A DNA stretch of 64,000 bases. Origin: Pyruvatibacter sp. HU-CL02332. GTDB lineage: Bacteria; Pseudomonadota; Alphaproteobacteria; CGMCC-115125. Within the stretch, counting starts at the first letter, position 1. The number at the start of each line of letters is the position of its first letter. The stretch lies in NCBI RefSeq assembly GCF_040362765.1, contig NZ_BAABWK010000001.1, positions 1,217,501 through 1,281,500 on the forward strand, read 5' to 3'. The translations under genes and the position numbers were made by a program. Positions 29,385 to 39,382 of this stretch are shown here, piece by piece. The notes below the pieces were generated by a model. It made no database searches. It was given only the letters and a program-made list of their open reading frames with translations, and was not told the DNA's origin.

Positions 29385-29521
29385 CCTCAGAAATGGTCCG
29401 TAGCGGTCCAATTGCGGGGCGCGGGTCGCCTCTGGAAACACACAATCGCGTCACTTACCTGACACGTGGTTGACTTACGCCTTTGAACTTGGCGGAGTTG
29501 GCACCTCGCAGTTCTCAAAAG

Positions 29522-30898
29522 ATGCCGAAAGACGCCGCTATGCCTTCTTCTGCCAGCCAAGCGACAGCCTCCAGTGACATTGCATCCACTGGTGCACAAC
29601 GCCTGTCGCGCGCGACGCTCATGGCACACTTTGAGCGCGTGCGCGCTGCAACTGAAAGCCTGGCTGCCCCGCTGACGCCGGAAGACCAGATGCTGCAATC
29701 CATGGAGGATGCAAGCCCGGCCCGCTGGCATCGTGCGCACACCACATGGTTCTTTGAGACATTTGTCTTGAAGCCACACGACGCGACCTATCAGCCGGTC
29801 GACCCAATCTACGACTATCTGTTCAATTCCTACTATCAGGCCGTCGGCCCGCAATACCCGCGCCCGAACCGTGGGCTGGTCTCGCGCCCCAGCGTGGCGG
29901 AAGTGGGAATATATCGAAGCCAGGTCGATGCGGCGCTCCTGGGCTTTGCCCAGTCCACTGACGACGACACATGGCAAACCATTGCGCCGTTGATTGAGCT
30001 GGGACTGCATCACGAACAGCAGCATCAGGAACTACTCGTCACAGACCTGAAACACGCCCTGTCCTTCAACCCGATGTGGCCTGCAATCTATCCAGCACCT
30101 GAACATCAAAGCGATGCAGCATCTGCTCTTGGCTGGGTCGACTTTCCCGGCGGCATCACCATATGCGGCCACTCCGGTGATCTAGCCAATGACGGGTTTG
30201 CCTATGACTGCGAAGGCCCGCGCCATCAGGTGCTGATGCGCGACTACGCGCTGGCAACCCGACCTACGACGAATGCGGAGTATCTCGAATTTGTTCGTGA
30301 TGGCGGATATGCAGACCCACGTTGGTGGCATGCCGAAGGATGGGACCGGGCGCAGGCAGATAACTGGCATGCCCCGCTTTACTGGATACAGGACGACACA
30401 GCGTCCGACACCTGGACAACCTACACACTGCATGGCCGCGTTGCCGTGAACCCACATGAGCCCGTGTGCCACATCTCTTTCTTTGAAGCAGCCGCCTATG
30501 CTGCATGGCGCAGCGAACAGGGCGACGACGTACGTCTGCCAACCGAGTTTGAACTTGAACACGCTGCCGCAGGACTTGAACCGACAGGCAACTTTGCCGG
30601 CACGCAGCCCGGACAATCCGCACTGCACCCCAAAGCTGCAGACCACGCAGGACAACTTGAGCAGGTGTTTGGCGACGTATGGGAATGGACACAGAGCGCA
30701 TACACGCCATATCCCGGTTTCAAACCGGTCGCCGGTGCCATTGGTGAGTACAATGGCAAGTTCATGGCCAATCAGATGGTCCTGCGCGGCGGCAGCGTCG
30801 CCACGGCTGAGAACCACATGCGTGCGACCTACCGAAACTTTTTCCCTGCCCATGCACGATGGCAATTCTCAGGGTTGCGCCTTGCACGCGACACTTAA
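29522..30898 (+). CDS. egtB: Ergothioneine biosynthesis protein EgtB (hercynine sulfoxide synthase)
   Basis: A 458-residue protein. The N-terminal DinB-type half contributes the three-His iron site: WHRAH (about 70-73) and LHHEQQHQE (about 163-170). The C-terminal half is a formylglycine-generating-enzyme-like domain (HISFFEAAAYAAWRS, RLPTEFELEHAA, VFGDVWEWTQSAYTPYPGF, LRGGSVAT). EgtB joins hercynine to cysteine or gamma-glutamylcysteine with O2. The start is uncertain (ATG 29522 or 29540; an in-frame TTG at 29483 is less likely). Its partner egtD lies 77 bp downstream. No egtA, egtC or egtE is nearby. Confidence 0.92.
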   Translation: MPKDAAMPSSASQATASSDIASTGAQRLSRATLMAHFERVRAATESLAAPLTPEDQMLQSMEDASPARWHRAHTTWFFETFVLKPHDATYQPVDPIYDYLFNSYYQAVGPQYPRPNRGLVSRPSVAEVGIYRSQVDAALLGFAQSTDDDTWQTIAPLIELGLHHEQQHQELLVTDLKHALSFNPMWPAIYPAPEHQSDAASALGWVDFPGGITICGHSGDLANDGFAYDCEGPRHQVLMRDYALATRPTTNAEYLEFVRDGGYADPRWWHAEGWDRAQADNWHAPLYWIQDDTASDTWTTYTLHGRVAVNPHEPVCHISFFEAAAYAAWRSEQGDDVRLPTEFELEHAAAGLEPTGNFAGTQPGQSALHPKAADHAGQLEQVFGDVWEWTQSAYTPYPGFKPVAGAIGEYNGKFMANQMVLRGGSVATAENHMRATYRNFFPAHARWQFSGLRLARDT

Positions 30899-30975
30899 TA
30901 GTCCCACATCACAAAGCCTGCCAAGAAGCCTGAACGGCCAATCCACAGCCCGACCAGCATCGGGAAGGAAACAAT

Positions 30976-31989
30976 ATGACCGCCCACGACACGACAACAC
31001 TTGATCGACCCGACATCGACTCCTCCGCACTCGCGTTCTTCGTAGACGAAAAGCCTGCGCTGGCGACATTTCTTGATGATGCCATGACAGGCCTTGCCGC
31101 CTCTCCCAAGCGGATCGCGCCCAAGTACTTTTACGATGAGCGCGGCTCCGAGCTGTTCGACAAGATTTGTCAGACTCCGGAATATTATCCAACCCGCACG
31201 GAACTTGGCCTTCTCAAGAAGCACGGTGCGGACATTGCCAGGGCCGTTGGCCCGGACTGTCTGGTGGTTGAATACGGCGCGGGCTCAAGCCTCAAGATAC
31301 GCCGCCTGCTCGAGGCCCTCGACAAGCCGGCGGGCTATGTAGCTGTCGATATCAGCCGCGACTACCTGCACGGCCAGATGAGCGGCCTTGCCGGCGACAT
31401 GCCGGAGATTGCCGTCGGTGCCATTTGTGCCGATTTCACGCAGGGTTTCGACCTGCCCGCAGAAACCCGAAATCTGGGCACACGCAAGCTTGGTTTCCTG
31501 CCCGGCTCGACAATCGGTAACTTTGTGCCTGCCGAGGCCGAAGCCCTTTTGGCACGTAGCACCAAACTGCTGGGCAAGGGTGGCCAGTTCCTCATCGGCG
31601 TTGACCTGAAGAAGCCAAAACACATTCTGGATGCCGCCTATGACGATGGCGCCGGGGTCACAGCGGCCTTCAACCTGAACCTGCTCAAAAGGATGCAGTC
31701 AGAGCTGGGCGCGGAGCTCAACGAGGGCGGATTTTCCCACGTGGCCTTTTACAATGGCGATCAGGGCCGCGTGGAAATGCACCTGGAAGCCAAAGGCCCA
31801 CAGACAATTCGTCTGGAAGGCCAGAATTTCGACTTTGATGACGGCGAGCGCATTCACACGGAAAGCTCTTACAAGTATGAGCCTCAGGAGTTCGCAGATA
31901 TGGCCAAAAAGGCCGGATTTGTGCCGCGCGGTCTGTGGACAGACGTGGATGGCCTGTTCTCGCTCCACCTGCTGGAAGTCGCCGGTTAA
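30976..31989 (+). CDS. egtD: L-histidine N(alpha)-methyltransferase EgtD
   Basis: A 337-residue protein. KYFYDERGSELFDKICQTPEYYPTR marks EgtD. The SAM site is VVEYGAGSSLKIRRLL, and LGFLPGSTIGNFVPAEA is also characteristic. EgtD trimethylates histidine to hercynine, the substrate of EgtB, so the pair makes the thiol antioxidant ergothioneine once a C-S lyase acts. GGAAGGAA lies just before the ATG. Confidence 0.93.
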   Translation: MTAHDTTTLDRPDIDSSALAFFVDEKPALATFLDDAMTGLAASPKRIAPKYFYDERGSELFDKICQTPEYYPTRTELGLLKKHGADIARAVGPDCLVVEYGAGSSLKIRRLLEALDKPAGYVAVDISRDYLHGQMSGLAGDMPEIAVGAICADFTQGFDLPAETRNLGTRKLGFLPGSTIGNFVPAEAEALLARSTKLLGKGGQFLIGVDLKKPKHILDAAYDDGAGVTAAFNLNLLKRMQSELGAELNEGGFSHVAFYNGDQGRVEMHLEAKGPQTIRLEGQNFDFDDGERIHTESSYKYEPQEFADMAKKAGFVPRGLWTDVDGLFSLHLLEVAG

Positions 31990-32107: not shown

Positions 32108-32161
32108 CCGGCACCCTTCCCCACAAATGAAATGGGTGGAGGGCAAAAGTGGAGCTGAAAC

Positions 32162-32587
32162 CTGAGTATCGACTATGCTGGCCAAGAGGCCAAAGCGGCG
32201 GAAGAGACATCTTTCGCAGGCACACAGTCAGAAGACCACAACCAGTCCGACCGGCTTCGCGCAGCAGCGCTGGCGTGTCTTGAAGACACCAAGGCCGAAG
32301 ACGTTGTCACCATCGAACTCGCAGGCAAATCATCTATGGCCGACTGCATGGTAATCGCCAGCGGCCGGTCACAGCGCCATGTGGGGTCTGTTGCGGACTA
32401 TCTGGTTGAGGCCCTGAAGAAAGCAGGCTGCAAGGCACCGCGTGTTGAAGGCATGACCCATGCTGATTGGGTCCTGATCGACGCCGGTGACGTTGTCATC
32501 CATGTTTTCCGTCCGGAAGTGCGGGATTTCTACAATCTTGAGCGCCTCTGGTCCTCTGACATGCCCGAAGACCAGTTGGCCAACTAG
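32162..32587 (+). CDS. rsfS: Ribosomal silencing factor RsfS, apparent CTG start
   Basis: The RsfS family sequence is clear (DTKAEDVVTIELAGKSSMAD, VIASGRSQRHVGSVADYL, DWVLIDAGDVVIHVF, REFYNLE-like RDFYNLERLW). The conserved N-terminal helix (LRAAALACLEDTKAED) lies upstream of the first ATG at 32336. The frame is open back to a TGA at 32156, and between there and 32336 there is no ATG, GTG or TTG. CTG at 32162 has GGAG seven bases before it and gives 141 residues. A 20-codon frame ending TGA at 32163-32165 overlaps it, as in other coupled pairs here. RsfS blocks subunit joining by binding L14. An error in the sequence is the alternative. Confidence 0.8.
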   Translation: MSIDYAGQEAKAAEETSFAGTQSEDHNQSDRLRAAALACLEDTKAEDVVTIELAGKSSMADCMVIASGRSQRHVGSVADYLVEALKKAGCKAPRVEGMTHADWVLIDAGDVVIHVFRPEVRDFYNLERLWSSDMPEDQLAN

Positions 32588-32639: not shown

Positions 32640-33104
32640 ATGCGCATCACCGTCTGCGCCATAGGCCGCATGCGTGACAAGAATGAGCGCGCGCTTGCCG
32701 ACGATTACCTCTCACGGGCACAGGCTCTGGGCCGGAATCTGGGCATCACGGACATCAAGACAATCGAGCTGGACGCAAAGCCAACCAGAGAACTGGAAGG
32801 CGAGGCCTTGCTGGCTGCCTTGCCTGACAACGCGTTCATCATCGCCATGGACGAAACAGGCAAACAGCGGCCAAGTCGTGATCTGGCAAAATGGCTGGAT
32901 ACCCTGAAGGACGGCACCCACCGCGACATTGCTTTTGTGATTGGTGGGGCAGATGGCCACAGCGCCGCGGTAAAAACCAAGGCGAACGCTACGCTGTCCC
33001 TGGGCGCCATGACTTGGCCGCATATGCTGGCCAGAATCATGCTGCTTGAGCAGGTCTATCGGGCCATATCCATTCTGGCTCGCCACCCTTATCATCGCGA
33101 CTAG
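32640..33104 (+). CDS. rlmH: 23S rRNA (pseudouridine1915-N3)-methyltransferase RlmH
   Basis: A 154-residue SPOUT methyltransferase, starting MRITVCAIGRMRDKNERALADDY. FIIAMDETGKQRPSRDLA, FVIGGADGHS and the C-terminal LARIMLLEQVYRAISILARHPYHRD are the family hallmarks, including the trefoil-knot SAM site. It modifies helix 69 of 23S rRNA. An in-frame start nine codons earlier is less likely. It follows rsfS by 52 bp as in most alphaproteobacteria. Confidence 0.95.
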   Translation: MRITVCAIGRMRDKNERALADDYLSRAQALGRNLGITDIKTIELDAKPTRELEGEALLAALPDNAFIIAMDETGKQRPSRDLAKWLDTLKDGTHRDIAFVIGGADGHSAAVKTKANATLSLGAMTWPHMLARIMLLEQVYRAISILARHPYHRD

Positions 33105-33189: not shown

Positions 33190-34698
33190 ATGAGACTTTT
33201 CGGCCGACCCAAAACAACTGGCGACGCACCTGCGCGCCCCGTCGTCGTGGCCATGCTGCAGGGATGGGGCGCGGTTGCAGACAATCCCCGCGCGCCGATT
33301 TTCAGCACCCGTACGCCAGCCTTCAACCGCCTGGCCCAGCGCGCTGCTGCAACATCCATAGCCCCTGCCACCACGCCCACAAGTATGAGCAGCGCCCTTG
33401 CAGCAATTGCGGAGGGCAACAGTGCTGTTGCGCCCAGCTCACCTCTGGAGGCGGTCCTTCGGGCCCCCGGCGGCTTGGCGGAACACGCGGGCTTTCAGTC
33501 TTTCGTCAAAGACCTGACGCGTGTTGGGGGTGATTGCCACCTTCTGTGCTGCCTGACATCCTCGGGCATTGAAGGGTTCACAGCTCACGCTGCAAAAATC
33601 GCAGCCAATCTCAGTCATGCAGGCGTTCGCGTCTGGGTCCACGCCATCCTGGATGGCCGAGATACAGCGCCTGATGCTGCACTGGGCGCCCTGCACGAGT
33701 TTCACGAAGATGTAGCAGGCGTTGACACGGTGCGCTTTGCAACCGTGTCCGGCCGGGCCTTCGCCCTCGACGAAACAGCAGATGCCAAGGCACTGGCTTT
33801 AGTGCGCGATGCCATCGTTGATGCGAGCCCGCAGCAACGCAGCGGTCTTGCGCAGTACATCGATGCCCAAAACCAGACAGGCGTGAATGATGGAGACATC
33901 AAACCTGCAGCGGACCAGACCTATCCAGGCCTGCGCAGTGACGACGCCTTATTGGTTCTTCATCCGCAGGCAGATGGTTTTTCAGACCTGCTGAAAGTTC
34001 TGGTGCCCGGCGATACACTGGATGTGCCTTCGGCACGCCCTTCCACACTATCCGCCTGTAGGCGGATGATCGGCTGGCCACAAGCCGGCACGTCGCCCGC
34101 AGCACAGGCGCGCCAGCCCCTGTCGTTGTTTCAACCCTCCCATCCTCGACTGCCTGACATTGTGCGCAGCGCAGATCTGAGCCTGATGATGGCCGCGCCG
34201 CGTCACGAGCACACATTGTGGGCGGCGTCCGTTGAAGGGTGCACGCCCAAGGCCAGCAAGACATTGGTGGCAACGAACGCTCTGGAAGCGGCAGATGCTG
34301 CCGTTCGCGCTATCAAGGAAGACAAGACCGACGTAATTTTCGCGTTGCTGGCAGGTGTGCCGGCGGCAGCGCGCATGCCGGGCAGCCGATCACTTGATCC
34401 AGCGGCCCGCCGCATCATTGAACAACAGGACAAGGGACTGGGCCGGATCGCAGCCATCATCGAGCGGCGCGGCGGCACATTGATGGCCATCGGCACCGAT
34501 ACGAGCCTTGGCCTTGCAACGTCGCTTCCCTGCCTCATTCATGGCGGCCCGTGCACAAGCGACACACCGCTTAACGCGGGCACACTTGCCGACATTGCAC
34601 CCACCATCCTCGATCTGGCAGGCGCACAGCCCCATGAGCAGCTGTCCGGCATGTCACTTCTGGCCCATGAGGAGGTCATTGATGCGGCGGCATCGTGA
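33190..34698 (+). CDS. Degenerate GpmI (cofactor-independent phosphoglycerate mutase) homologue, probably inactive
   Basis: A 502-residue protein. Homology to GpmI is supported by VVVAMLQGWGAVADNPRAPIFSTRTPA, by VWVHAILDGRDTAPDAAL (equivalent to HAFLDGRDTPP) and by TLADIAPTILDLAGA, and by its place next to envC and yibQ-type genes as in Escherichia coli gpmM-envC-yibQ. Catalytic metal ligands are mostly missing. The first Asp (DGxG) is Gln24, GNSEVGH has become GNSAVAP (Ser78 kept), the DMVGH and ADHGN segments are not recognisable (only GTDTS remains), and the H near SAGGVHSH is gone. Phosphoglycerate mutase activity therefore seems unlikely. The fold may be retained for a cell-wall-linked role. 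It overlaps the next gene by 17 bases. Confidence 0.7.
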   Translation: MRLFGRPKTTGDAPARPVVVAMLQGWGAVADNPRAPIFSTRTPAFNRLAQRAAATSIAPATTPTSMSSALAAIAEGNSAVAPSSPLEAVLRAPGGLAEHAGFQSFVKDLTRVGGDCHLLCCLTSSGIEGFTAHAAKIAANLSHAGVRVWVHAILDGRDTAPDAALGALHEFHEDVAGVDTVRFATVSGRAFALDETADAKALALVRDAIVDASPQQRSGLAQYIDAQNQTGVNDGDIKPAADQTYPGLRSDDALLVLHPQADGFSDLLKVLVPGDTLDVPSARPSTLSACRRMIGWPQAGTSPAAQARQPLSLFQPSHPRLPDIVRSADLSLMMAAPRHEHTLWAASVEGCTPKASKTLVATNALEAADAAVRAIKEDKTDVIFALLAGVPAAARMPGSRSLDPAARRIIEQQDKGLGRIAAIIERRGGTLMAIGTDTSLGLATSLPCLIHGGPCTSDTPLNAGTLADIAPTILDLAGAQPHEQLSGMSLLAHEEVIDAAAS

Positions 34699-35926
34699 CA
34701 TCTCATTTACATCGACACTGGCAATTGCCCTTGCCGTTGCCTGGCCGTCCGGACATGCGCAGGAAACACGCATAGACCCCGCCCAGGCAGAAGAACTTAT
34801 GGAAGTGGAGCGTGCCCTTGGCGGCGCGTCATCCTCTCGGGATGCCGCTGAAGCCAAGGCCAAGGCAGCGGCCCGCGCGGTGCTGCGCCTGCGTGAAGAA
34901 CTGGTAGCCGCCGGTGACCGGGCCGCCGCGCTGGAAACCGCAGTCAGCGAAAATCAGTCTCACATTGAAGGTCTCGTTGCCGCCCGCGCAGTAAGCGAAG
35001 CATTGCTGGCTACACGGCGAGAGCAACTCGTTGAAAGCCTTGCCGCCCTCCAGCGCCTCGACCTCGAACCACCGCCCGCTTTGCTGGTGAAGCCGCAGGA
35101 TGCCTTGGCGGCAGCGCGCGGAGCGATGCTTCTGGGTACGCTGGTACCAGAGTTGAAGAGCGTCGCAGACGATCTGTCAGAGCAGATCAAGAGCCTTGAG
35201 GACCTGACCCGCACCATCACCAGCCAGCGCGAACAGCTGACCCAGGACGTGGCAGCCCTGAATGTTGAGCAGCGCCGGATTGATGAATTGCTGGTCGCCA
35301 AGCGCGAAGAGGAACTCATAAGCTCCACCGATGCCAAGCGCGCCGCAGACAAATATGCAGAACTGGCAGGCCGCGCCCGCTCCCTGCGCGATTTGCTGGG
35401 CGGTCTGGAGGAGGATGTGCCGACATTTGCGGCCCTGCGCCCCGGCGATGATGCTGAAACAGCACCGCCCGCCTTCTCAACCCTGCGCGGCACCCTGCGA
35501 AGCCCTGCAACAGGAAGGATTATCCAGCGTTTTGGTTCCGATGACGGCTCAGGCAGTCCCTCTCAGGGGGTCAGCTTACGTGCACGGGCCGGGGGGCAGG
35601 TCGTAAGCCCTGCGGATGCCGAAATCGTGTTTGCGGGGCCATTTCGCAGTTATGGCAACGTGTTGATAATCACCCCAGGCGACAATTACCTTATTGTTAT
35701 CGCTGGATTGGCTGAGATTTACGCCGGACCAGGCCAGCAGTTGCTTGCCGGTGAGCCCATTGGGCGGCTTCCGACGGGCTCAAATGCGGCAAATGGTGGC
35801 CAAAATGGGCTTCTGGAGGCCGGTAGAGGTGCAGGTAATACACCTGTGCTCTATATAGAGATGAGAAAAGACGGGAAACCGGTTGATCCGGCCCCGTGGA
35901 TCAGGTTTCAGGGCCGCCCGGCCTAG
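34682..35926 (+). CDS. EnvC-like murein hydrolase activator (LytM/M23 domain)
   Basis: A 414-residue protein starting MRRHRDISFTSTLAIALAVAWPSGHA, a Sec signal peptide cut near GHAQ, with GGAGG six bases upstream. Residues about 45-270 are long charged coiled coil. The C terminus (about 290-410) is a LytM domain: GRIIQRFG, GVSLRARAGGQVVSPADAEIVFAGPFRSYGNVLII, PVLYIEMRKDGKPVDPAPWI. The His ligands of active M23 endopeptidases are missing, which is the EnvC pattern. It should activate periplasmic amidases during septum splitting. Next to ctpA. Confidence 0.88.
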   Translation: MRRHRDISFTSTLAIALAVAWPSGHAQETRIDPAQAEELMEVERALGGASSSRDAAEAKAKAAARAVLRLREELVAAGDRAAALETAVSENQSHIEGLVAARAVSEALLATRREQLVESLAALQRLDLEPPPALLVKPQDALAAARGAMLLGTLVPELKSVADDLSEQIKSLEDLTRTITSQREQLTQDVAALNVEQRRIDELLVAKREEELISSTDAKRAADKYAELAGRARSLRDLLGGLEEDVPTFAALRPGDDAETAPPAFSTLRGTLRSPATGRIIQRFGSDDGSGSPSQGVSLRARAGGQVVSPADAEIVFAGPFRSYGNVLIITPGDNYLIVIAGLAEIYAGPGQQLLAGEPIGRLPTGSNAANGGQNGLLEAGRGAGNTPVLYIEMRKDGKPVDPAPWIRFQGRPA

Positions 35927-36045: not shown

Positions 36046-37401
36046 ATGATGCACCGTACGGTGATTGCAGGGGCCGCAGGCCTGGTGAGCCTGGCTCTTG
36101 TAGGGATTTTTGCCCTTGATGCGGGCCCGACCCGTGGTGGTGCGGAAGCCGCAAGTTCTGAGACATACCGGCAGCTAAACCTGTTTGGCGATGTATTCGA
36201 GCGGGTCCGCGCAGACTATGTCGAAGAGCCGGCTGACGCTGATCTGATCGATAACGCGATCAACGGCATGCTGACATCACTCGACCCGCATTCAAGCTAC
36301 CTCAACCCCAAGACCTTCCGCGATATGCAGGTGCAAACCCGCGGCGAATTTGGCGGACTTGGCATCGAAGTCACCATGGAAGAGGGCTTTGTCAAAGTCG
36401 TTGCCCCCATCGATGACACACCGGCAGACAAAGCAGGCCTGCGCGCCAATGATCTGATCACCCATCTGGATGGTGAGCCGGTGCTTGGCCTCACGCTTTC
36501 AGCTGCGGTTGAAAAGATGCGCGGACCAGTCAACGCCCCCATCACCGTGACAATCGTTCGACAGGGCCGCAACGAAGCCTTTGACGTAACGGTCGTGCGC
36601 GACATCATTCGCATCAAGTCCGTGCGCTACAAGCGCGACGAAGGCGTGGGCTATATCCGCGTCACAACATTCAACGAGCAGACATCAGACGGTGTGCGTG
36701 CCGCTCTGCGCGAAATGTCGGACATGCCCGGCTTCGTTGTGGATCTGCGCAACAACCCCGGCGGTCTGCTGGATCAGGCCATTGAGGTCTCCGACATCTT
36801 CCTTGAAAAGGGCGAAGTCGTTTCAACCCGCGGCCGCTATCCTGAAGACACCCAACGGTACAACTCGCGCCCCGGCGATCTTGCCAACGGCAAGCAGGTA
36901 GTCGTGCTCGTGAATGGCGGATCCGCTTCAGCGTCGGAAATCGTCGCCGGTGCCCTGCAGGATCATGAGCGTGCACTGGTGCTTGGCACCCGCTCCTTTG
37001 GCAAGGGCTCTGTACAGACCATCATCCCACTTGGTTCCGATGGCGCCATTCGCCTGACAACAGCCCGCTACTACACACCAGCCGGCCGGTCGATCCAGGC
37101 CAAGGGCATTACGCCAGATATCAAGGTCGAGCAGAACGTGCCGGAAGACGAAGACATCCGCACAACCGGTGAAGCCGGACTGGCGGGCCATCTGGCCGCT
37201 GAAGACGAGGACGAAAAGGGTGGGTCATCCGCCTACGTGCCTCGAGATGCCAAAGATGACCTTCAACTCATCTATGCCCGTGACCTGATCCTCGGCAAGC
37301 GGACATATGATCCGGCAAATCCGGCGCCAACTGCTGATGCAAGCGCCGCAGCAGGTGCTGGAAGCGAAGGCGGCGCTGCTATGGCCCCGATTCCCAACTA
37401 A
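36046..37401 (+). CDS. ctpA: Carboxy-terminal processing protease CtpA (S41)
   Basis: A 451-residue exported protease with an N-terminal hydrophobic segment (about 5-25), a PDZ domain (about 95-175, GGLGIEVTMEEGFVKVVAPID) and a C-terminal S41 domain. The Ser/Lys dyad is probably S295 (GGSASASEIVAG) and K320 (SFGKGSVQT), 25 residues apart as in Prc. The C terminus is Ala/Gly-rich. CtpA degrades periplasmic proteins and in alphaproteobacteria acts on cell-wall hydrolases, matching the envC and deacetylase neighbours. Confidence 0.93.
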   Translation: MMHRTVIAGAAGLVSLALVGIFALDAGPTRGGAEAASSETYRQLNLFGDVFERVRADYVEEPADADLIDNAINGMLTSLDPHSSYLNPKTFRDMQVQTRGEFGGLGIEVTMEEGFVKVVAPIDDTPADKAGLRANDLITHLDGEPVLGLTLSAAVEKMRGPVNAPITVTIVRQGRNEAFDVTVVRDIIRIKSVRYKRDEGVGYIRVTTFNEQTSDGVRAALREMSDMPGFVVDLRNNPGGLLDQAIEVSDIFLEKGEVVSTRGRYPEDTQRYNSRPGDLANGKQVVVLVNGGSASASEIVAGALQDHERALVLGTRSFGKGSVQTIIPLGSDGAIRLTTARYYTPAGRSIQAKGITPDIKVEQNVPEDEDIRTTGEAGLAGHLAAEDEDEKGGSSAYVPRDAKDDLQLIYARDLILGKRTYDPANPAPTADASAAAGAGSEGGAAMAPIPN

Positions 37402-37507: not shown

Positions 37508-37630
37508 TTAAGCCAGCCTGCCCCGTGTTAAGCGTGACTGGACGCACGGCGCGCAAGCCCTTATGCCAGCACAGATAAACCGCTATCGTGAGCGCTCTTG
37601 AATTCATATCGGTGCACCCACCTGCCTGCC

Positions 37631-38878
37631 ATGACCGCCATCCCGACAGATACAGACCACCAGGACACAGCTGATACCGGCACGACGCGGATCAGCCCAC
37701 TGGCTATTGCCGTATTCGCAGTCGCGCTGCTGATCGGTGGTTTGCTCATCTGGCTGTCCTTTGCAGGCGATGATGGCCGCCCCGCCGAGCACGTTTTGCA
37801 GCTCTCGACCGACGAAGACGCTGGCACCGAAACCCTGATAAGCGGCGAGACCGTTTCCATTCCCCCGCGGCCGCAGGTTCTGAATGGCGATGAAACGCCC
37901 AGCGCTGGAGACGAGACGGACACACCAACGCAGAACGACAACACACTGCCCGCCACAGACGGTAACCTTCAGCAGATCGGATCACTGCCACTACTGACCG
38001 CAGGCGCGTCCCTGGAAGGCGCCCCGATAGAAGGCCTGTATGAAGAAACCACGGCTGGGCTTCTTCCCGTTGTGGCCACCGATGGCCGGCGCCCTGTCGC
38101 CAGCTACGGCCGCCCCTTTGAGCTGCCACTCACAGGCGACGATGCCCGGCCGCGCGTGGCCATCATGATTATGGGCTTTGGTCTAAATCGGACATTCGCT
38201 GAACGTGCCCTTGAGCAACTCCCTGCTGACATCTCTTTGGCATTCACGCCGTATTCCAGTGAACTGCAAAACCAGATCAATGCCGCACGGGCCGACGGCC
38301 ATGAAGTTGCTCTTGAGCTTCCAATGGAGCCGTTTGACTATCCCGATAATGATCCGGGTCCCTACACATTGCTGACCAACCTGCCCGCCGAAGCAAACCG
38401 CAAGCGCCTCGAATGGCTGCTGGCGCGAACAACGGGCTACTTCGCCACCGTCAATCGACAGGGCGGACGGTTCCTATCGGAATCTGAGTCACTTGCGCCC
38501 ATCATGACTGCTTTGATGGAACGCGGCGTCGGCTTCGTCGATACCGGCGACGGCGCACGCAACGCGACCGAAGATGCGGTGCCGGAAGGCTTCAACTGGG
38601 CGGTCGGCAATCGGGTTGTGGATGCCGCCAAATCCCCACGCCAGATTGACAAGGCACTGTCTGATCTTGAAGAGGCTGCACGCGACAACGGCATGGCCGT
38701 TGGCATCGGGACAGCCCTTCCCATTACCGTTGAACGCGTTGCCCAATGGGCTGAAAGCCTTGCGGAAAAGGGCATTGATCTCGTTCCGGTTTCTGCAGCC
38801 CTTGCCCATGGCACGTCCGTTCCGGCTGGCAATGATGCAACAAGCCAAGCGGACGCTTCCGGTGATCTCAGCGAATAG
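37631..38878 (+). CDS. Divergent polysaccharide deacetylase family protein (YibQ-like)
   Basis: A 415-residue protein from MTAIPTDTD, with one N-terminal membrane helix (about 22-43), a Thr/Asp-rich linker to about 150 and a C-terminal deacetylase-like domain (VAIMIMGFGLNRTFAERALE, ADISLAFTPYSSE, VALELPMEPFDYP, GVGFVDTGDG, DKALSDLEEAARDNGMAVGIG). The Asp pair of active NodB deacetylases (IDDxG) reads IMGFG, which is usual for this divergent group. It probably works in the periplasm with the envC-like protein and CtpA. The start is uncertain and lacks a clear ribosome site. Confidence 0.82.
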   Translation: MTAIPTDTDHQDTADTGTTRISPLAIAVFAVALLIGGLLIWLSFAGDDGRPAEHVLQLSTDEDAGTETLISGETVSIPPRPQVLNGDETPSAGDETDTPTQNDNTLPATDGNLQQIGSLPLLTAGASLEGAPIEGLYEETTAGLLPVVATDGRRPVASYGRPFELPLTGDDARPRVAIMIMGFGLNRTFAERALEQLPADISLAFTPYSSELQNQINAARADGHEVALELPMEPFDYPDNDPGPYTLLTNLPAEANRKRLEWLLARTTGYFATVNRQGGRFLSESESLAPIMTALMERGVGFVDTGDGARNATEDAVPEGFNWAVGNRVVDAAKSPRQIDKALSDLEEAARDNGMAVGIGTALPITVERVAQWAESLAEKGIDLVPVSAALAHGTSVPAGNDATSQADASGDLSE

Positions 38879-38896: not shown

Positions 38897-39382
38897 ATGA
38901 GCAAACTCCCCTACCGCCCCTGCGTCGGCATCATGCTGCTTAACTCGTCCAACAAGGTATGGATTGGTCGACGGGCCATGAAGCGATCTGTGCAGCAGGA
39001 TGAACCCGGCTCATGGCAAATGCCGCAAGGCGGCATCGACAAGGGTGAAGACCCATTGCCTGCAGCGCTGCGGGAGCTGGAAGAAGAAACCGGCATCAGC
39101 GATGTGGAGGTGATTGGGCAGACGGAAGACTGGCTGACCTATGACCTGCCGGAGCACCTCGTTGGCAAGGCCCTCAAGGGAAAGTATTGCGGCCAGAAAC
39201 AGAAATGGTTCGCCATGCGCTATCTGGGCAGCGACAGCGCCATTGATCTTTCAAAGGCGGAAGACGATGAGTTTGACGACTGGCGCTGGGAAGATGCGGC
39301 AGAGCTTCCAGGGTTGATCGTGGAGTTCAAACGCCCGGTCTACGAACAGGTCGTTGAGCGTTTCGCGCACTTAACCGCTTAG
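38897..39382 (+). CDS. rppH: RNA pyrophosphohydrolase (Nudix)
   Basis: A 161-residue protein. The Nudix box is complete: G45, E51, then R59-E-L-E-E-E-T-G-I (59-67). PYRPCVGIMLLN, SWQMPQGGIDKGEDP and the C-terminal KWFAMRYLG and YEQVV-F motifs mark RppH, which removes pyrophosphate from mRNA 5' ends before decay. It starts 18 bp after the deacetylase gene and is probably cotranscribed. Confidence 0.93.
   Translation: MSKLPYRPCVGIMLLNSSNKVWIGRRAMKRSVQQDEPGSWQMPQGGIDKGEDPLPAALRELEEETGISDVEVIGQTEDWLTYDLPEHLVGKALKGKYCGQKQKWFAMRYLGSDSAIDLSKAEDDEFDDWRWEDAAELPGLIVEFKRPVYEQVVERFAHLTA

Follow-up and report, generated by a model that had tools for sequence, protein, structure and literature searches.

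A GpmI-like protein without most of the catalytic residues of its family, kept before envC in two alphaproteobacterial orders

The window, a 64,000-nucleotide stretch of the genome of Pyruvatibacter sp. HU-CL02332, contains immediately before an envC-type gene a homologue of the phosphoglycerate mutase GpmI (iPGM) that is predicted to be catalytically inactive and is here called pGpmI. With a probability of roughly 0.6, we consider it to be a GpmI-derived cytoplasmic binding or regulatory pseudoenzyme tied to a septal peptidoglycan operon. GpmI is a well-known family and pseudoenzymes are a well-known class of protein, but a GpmI that is dead, under selection and fixed over two orders seems to be undescribed in the searchable literature. 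No description of an iPGM pseudoenzyme was found in a literature search whose partial coverage makes this weak evidence. The features of the locus are listed in Table 1.

Table 1. Features of the pGpmI locus, in window coordinates
Feature	Coordinates	Strand	Basis or remark
rsfS	~32159-32587	+	
rlmH	32640..33104	+	conserved upstream neighbour
pGpmI, GpmI-like pseudoenzyme gene	33190..34698	+	502 aa; iPGM_N and Metalloenzyme matches, AF2 model
Gln24, at the first metal-ligand Asp (D12 of B. stearothermophilus iPGM)	33259..33261	+	alignment A3
Transferase-like (iPGM_N) domain, residues 93-290	33466..34059	+	lowest dN/dS in the more distant pairs; pLDDT mostly >90
Arg157-Asp158, equivalents of substrate residues R153-D154, retained	33658..33663	+	alignments
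Arg189, equivalent of substrate residue R185, kept in all pseudoenzymes	33754..33756	+	alignments
Overlap of pGpmI end and envC start, 17 nt	34682..34698	+	envC ATG at 34682; pGpmI stop ends at 34698
EnvC-type LytM (M23) amidase activator	34682..35926	+	Peptidase_M23 9.2e-15; EnvC NCBIfam match under cut-off
CtpA-type S41 C-terminal processing protease	36046..37401	+	
SddA/YibQ-type divergent polysaccharide deacetylase	37598..38878	+	PF04748
RppH-like NUDIX hydrolase	38897..39382	+	end of conserved block

Fold and active site of pGpmI

The 502-codon reading frame and its coordinates were found as the preliminary description had given them. Homology to GpmI, also claimed there, is far above chance in profile searches, with Pfam matches to iPGM_N (1.7e-21) and Metalloenzyme (5.9e-7); the GpmI equivalog model TIGR01307 is matched with 84.7 bits, under its cut-off of 330.65. 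No signal peptide was seen in the protein. The AlphaFold (AF2) model, made from a 40-row alignment, has a mean pLDDT of 78 and a pTM of 0.75, and its top PDB matches in Foldseek are iPGMs, the fold agreeing with that of the B. stearothermophilus enzyme (1EJJ; E 6.2e-29, TM 0.77). The two-domain architecture of an AP-superfamily domain and a transferase domain is recovered by Pfam, AF2 and Foldseek. Confidence in the model is high for the transferase domain but low around several former active-site loops (61-66, 76-83, 392-400 and 439-442).

To read the active site, pGpmI was aligned first to 34 intact alphaproteobacterial GpmIs (alignment A3) and then to 99, and the columns of the 15 catalytic residues of the B. 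stearothermophilus enzyme were compared, in the numbering of 1EJJ. All 15 residues are invariant in 99/99 of the alphaproteobacterial GpmIs compared; 12 of the 15 are lost in the window's copy, and R153, D154 and R185 remain. pGpmI resembles GpmI/GpmM (TIGR01307, 1EJJ) in its full-length two-domain fold, its iPGM_N domain and its position before envC, whereas it is without Ser62, the metal ligands, H123, R191, R261, R264 and K336. The change of the first metal Asp to Gln24 that had been noted from the sequence was borne out by both alignments, the D12 column being Gln in 4/4 copies of the window's genus and Asp in Parvibaculales and in 99/99 active enzymes. In the window's copy and its three congeners S62, H123, R191, R261, R264 and K336 are replaced or deleted, as are D403, H407, D444, H445 and H462, and the loss of these metal segments, likewise noted before, is seen in both alignments. 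None of the seven metal-site residues (D12, S62, D403, H407, D444, H445 and H462) is retained in the window's genus, compared with all seven in 99/99 active enzymes, and a placement of all seven ligands, which was looked for, could not be made. The genus also has deletions at the GNSEVGH and DHGN segments. One reading did not survive: the motif GNSAVAP, taken as a remnant of GNSEVGH, is probably a chance match, since the alignments place a gap there and the congeners have ESSVSMGP or EGQEPQDP.

Among the substrate residues (H123, R153, D154, R185, R191, R261, R264 and K336), three of eight are present in the window's copy and two, D154 and R185, are retained across all pseudoenzymes, with R153 found in the window's genus only. 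The copies from Parvibaculales, described below, keep D12 throughout and otherwise have only scattered His at 407 or 445 in the metal site. Loss of the 15 catalytic positions is near total in 4 rows from the window's genus and 35 from Parvibaculales, five of the latter probably being genomes already counted, which leaves ~30 distinct. The S62 column varies between lineages (A, P, V, L, M, G or T), and the pseudoenzyme family has little conserved sequence that sets it apart from the active one. Judged by residue loss, pGpmI almost certainly has no mutase activity left, as the preliminary description had proposed. The invariant R185 and D154 may belong to a carboxylate-binding pocket, but both residues may instead be structural.

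Distribution, selection and the source of mutase activity

The window's order is represented in the collection by four species of one genus, and the gene is full-length and in the same place in 4/4. The congener copies are 94, 76 and 63% identical to that of the window, and the frameshift or absence in close relatives that would have spoken against a kept protein was sought in all three and not seen. A search of 385 genomes of the class gave as best matches beyond the genus the proteins of one other family, in the order Parvibaculales, where 31/40 genomes match and every copy read is degenerate too. These copies keep D12, D154 and R185 and have lost the other catalytic residues in lineage-specific ways, with variants such as GNLEAGH, GHAQAAY and AYPQAAY for GNSEVGH, DGED, DGQD and DGID for DGRD, and ASHGN and TYGKA for ADHGN. 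Frames are open and full-length in every copy from congeners and Parvibaculales uncut by a contig end. Gene loss in the unmatched Parvibaculales genomes was considered and mostly rejected, since those assemblies either lack rlmH or have it at the end of a contig; the exception is a clean loss in one genome, G386. A copy predicted to be inactive is present in essentially every Parvibaculales genome having the locus (~30). In one assembly (G412) there are two complete rlmH-pGpmI-envC loci (C22:83107-84663 and C24:303447-304988; L047, L070), which reflect either a duplicated locus or a mixed bin (contamination 4%).

A class-wide search for further dead GpmIs gave low-scoring matches that proved to be either fragments at contig ends or other members of the AP superfamily. 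The GpmIs of Rhodospirillales, Azospirillum, Kordiimonas, Rhodobacteraceae, Acetobacteraceae and others retain the motifs; misses of the motif patterns among them are motif variants, because all 15 residues are present. A separate observation is a tandem pair of GpmI genes (387 and 370 bits, barely above the family cut-off) in an alphaproteobacterium of 1.6 Mb (G095:C43:6427-9413; L156, L170).

In a maximum-likelihood protein tree both degenerate groups lie opposite all 32 active enzymes across one branch (100/99), and the window's genus forms a clade (100/100). Since mutual attraction of fast-evolving dead enzymes could produce such a grouping, an independent tree of RlmH and RsfS was built; it likewise unites the two orders (SH-aLRT 96), apart from every other lineage sampled. 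Lineages lacking gpmI, among them many Hyphomicrobiales, are absent from it, and the two are sister orders among those sampled. Since the gene tree and the neighbour tree both group the two orders, a single loss of catalysis in their common ancestor is likely.

Purifying selection, a check suggested in the preliminary description, was tested by dN/dS (Nei-Gojobori) between the window and its nearest congener, the one unsaturated pair, other pairs being nearer saturation. pGpmI has a dS of 0.604, a dN of 0.029 and a dN/dS of 0.048, and is thus like its neighbours rlmH (0.043) and envC (0.042). Values in the other pairs are 0.08–0.24, the transferase domain being most constrained; in more distant pairs its dN/dS is 0.047 vs 0.10–0.12. 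Its synonymous sites are no less variable than those of the neighbouring genes, so selection acts on the protein and not on hidden DNA or RNA signals. The low dN/dS and the open, full-length frames therefore exclude a pseudogene and make a mere translational leader for envC unlikely; frameshifts, stops and relaxed constraint, the marks of a pseudogene, were not found. An isolated relic was likewise ruled out, by the congeners, the Parvibaculales copies and the dN/dS. Descent from an active family (same locus, same domains), loss of the catalytic residues and a sequence under selection together characterize pGpmI as a pseudoenzyme, which is very probably kept for a function at the protein level.

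A second iPGM_N match was not found elsewhere in the window's genome. The search for another phosphoglycerate mutase, which had been suggested, found an intact GpmA (dPGM) adjoining dapB, and GpmA is present in 37/40 Parvibaculales genomes and in 27/27 of the good ones, there in a short form without ~25 residues. GpmA supplies the phosphoglycerate mutase reaction. The available part of the survey by Foster et al. 2010 (PMC2964296) notes the short GpmA of Parvibaculum lavamentivorans and places this species among the genomes with both dPGM and iPGM; within that part, the iPGM is treated as an isofunctional enzyme and loss of its active site is unmentioned. The iPGM of that survey is presumably the Parvibaculales pseudo copy. 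One genome, G406, has beside the short Parvibaculales-type GpmA a second, full-length one (C131:14655-15383, L151; 366 bits), possibly from contamination (6%).

Operon context and possible function

The order rsfS-rlmH-[GpmI-like]-envC-ctpA-sddA(yibQ)-rppH is shared by both orders, and rlmH-pGpmI-envC-ctpA-sddA-rppH was seen in all of the Parvibaculales loci that were inspected (12/12). In most alphaproteobacteria it is a gene for active GpmI that stands before envC, so the position of pGpmI is inherited, and an ancestral position does not necessarily signal a new role. The overlap with envC noted in the preliminary description is present, and an AGGAGG lies ~6 nt upstream of the envC ATG, within pGpmI; gene overlaps also occur in relatives. 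The likeness to the E. coli gpmM-envC-sddA(yibQ) operon (PMC12440217) stands in that genes for a PGM, an EnvC-type amidase activator and a deacetylase of the SddA type are clustered in both, but the window has rlmH upstream, a ctpA-type protease between envC and yibQ/sddA, and a dead mutase where the GpmM of E. coli is active. In E. coli, SddA removes acetyl groups from denuded glycan strands of the septum and is coupled to envC; the authors of that work propose, as a speculation, a link to energy metabolism via gpmM (PMC12440217). Upstream in the window, at 29483-31989, an ergothioneine-type pair, an EgtB-like gene (FGE-sulfatase/DinB_2) followed by an EgtD-like histidine-specific methyltransferase gene, adjoins nadD and proA. 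A pair of PF04748 (SddA-type) genes is present in many Parvibaculales genomes; one belongs to the envC block, and the other, which scores higher, lies outside it.

In the proposed course of events, GpmA would have taken over the mutase reaction in the ancestor of the window's order and Parvibaculales, after which GpmI would have lost the two-metal phosphatase centre and most of the phosphoglycerate site, the folded two-domain protein being kept. The function of pGpmI is probably non-catalytic, and we infer a role in binding: it would act in the cytoplasm on a protein partner and/or a small carboxylate held at the R185/D154 pocket of the transferase domain, binding of a small ligand being speculative. 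Produced together with EnvC, CtpA and SddA, it would link metabolic state to the splitting of septal peptidoglycan. As no signal peptide is visible, pGpmI should be cytoplasmic, and any effect on EnvC or SddA indirect, via a partner or ligand. A tie to the envelope operon and septal peptidoglycan is put forward tentatively, as less likely than not; a role in division is speculative, resting on the ancestral operon position and on one lineage that lost both pGpmI and the operonic sddA. That lineage is G386 (genus g277, Parvibaculales), whose locus on C3 (L068 1431-5454) reads rlmH-envC-ctpA-rppH with envC directly after rlmH, pGpmI and sddA having gone by two separate deletions. The co-loss, one evolutionary event, is suggestive, though no proof, of a functional tie to SddA. 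Against this, the co-loss is single and G386 keeps a second, distant PF04748 gene (C3:1555404); the loss also makes pGpmI dispensable in one lineage. In the incomplete sister of G386, G385, a single PF04748 gene is likewise seen, and by its high score it is of the type that lies elsewhere than in the block. A non-catalytic role for a protein of central metabolism is known in an alphaproteobacterium from Caulobacter CitA, which controls the cell cycle independently of its citrate synthase activity (PMC7083601), although CitA is a catalytically competent, moonlighting enzyme and pGpmI is not.

The constraint on pGpmI also bears on what else it could be. That the protein is idle and the gene survives solely because translation of envC runs through it would fit the 17-nt overlap, the AGGAGG inside the gene, the overlaps in relatives and the redundancy of mutase activity beside GpmA, yet translational coupling would not hold a dN/dS of 0.048 over 502 codons, which largely refutes it, and G386 dropped the gene and kept envC right after rlmH; this explanation is highly improbable. 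The same strong constraint would be expected of an enzyme with new chemistry on another substrate, whether through transferase-domain residues or through metal ligands that have migrated, and D154, R185 and the transferase core are kept in all copies and D12 in all Parvibaculales. However, the nucleophile and the two metal sites have gone, with deletions at GNSEVGH and DHGN in the window's genus, the former active-site loops are of low confidence in the model, and the remaining active-site positions differ between lineages with no new fixed set, so that such neofunctionalization seems quite improbable.

A non-catalytic role that has nothing to do with the cell wall, such as control of glycolysis through binding to GpmA, enolase or phosphoglycerates, is unlikely, though less so than new chemistry. 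The ancestry of the protein is glycolytic, its ancestral operon position is uninformative and GpmA always co-occurs; on the other side, the operon with envelope genes is conserved in every genome keeping pGpmI, co-variation having been tested for GpmA only. The binding or regulatory pseudoenzyme tied to the septal peptidoglycan operon remains our preferred reading. Its most specific form, in which this dead GpmI family fixed in two orders is a cytoplasmic metabolite sensor or adaptor tuning EnvC/SddA-dependent septal peptidoglycan splitting, is rather doubtful.

Implications for GpmI and its operon

Automated tools may keep naming the pGpmI genes gpmI, and genomes of both orders should not be counted as iPGM-bearing in metabolic models or surveys of isofunctional enzymes. 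The pGpmI lineages address the question of why a glycolytic mutase gene precedes envC in so many bacteria: with the enzyme dead and the protein and its position kept, a catalytic role can be separated from any other, which makes them a natural test case. If pGpmI is a sensor or adaptor, its non-catalytic function may be shared by active GpmM in the gpmM-envC-sddA operon.
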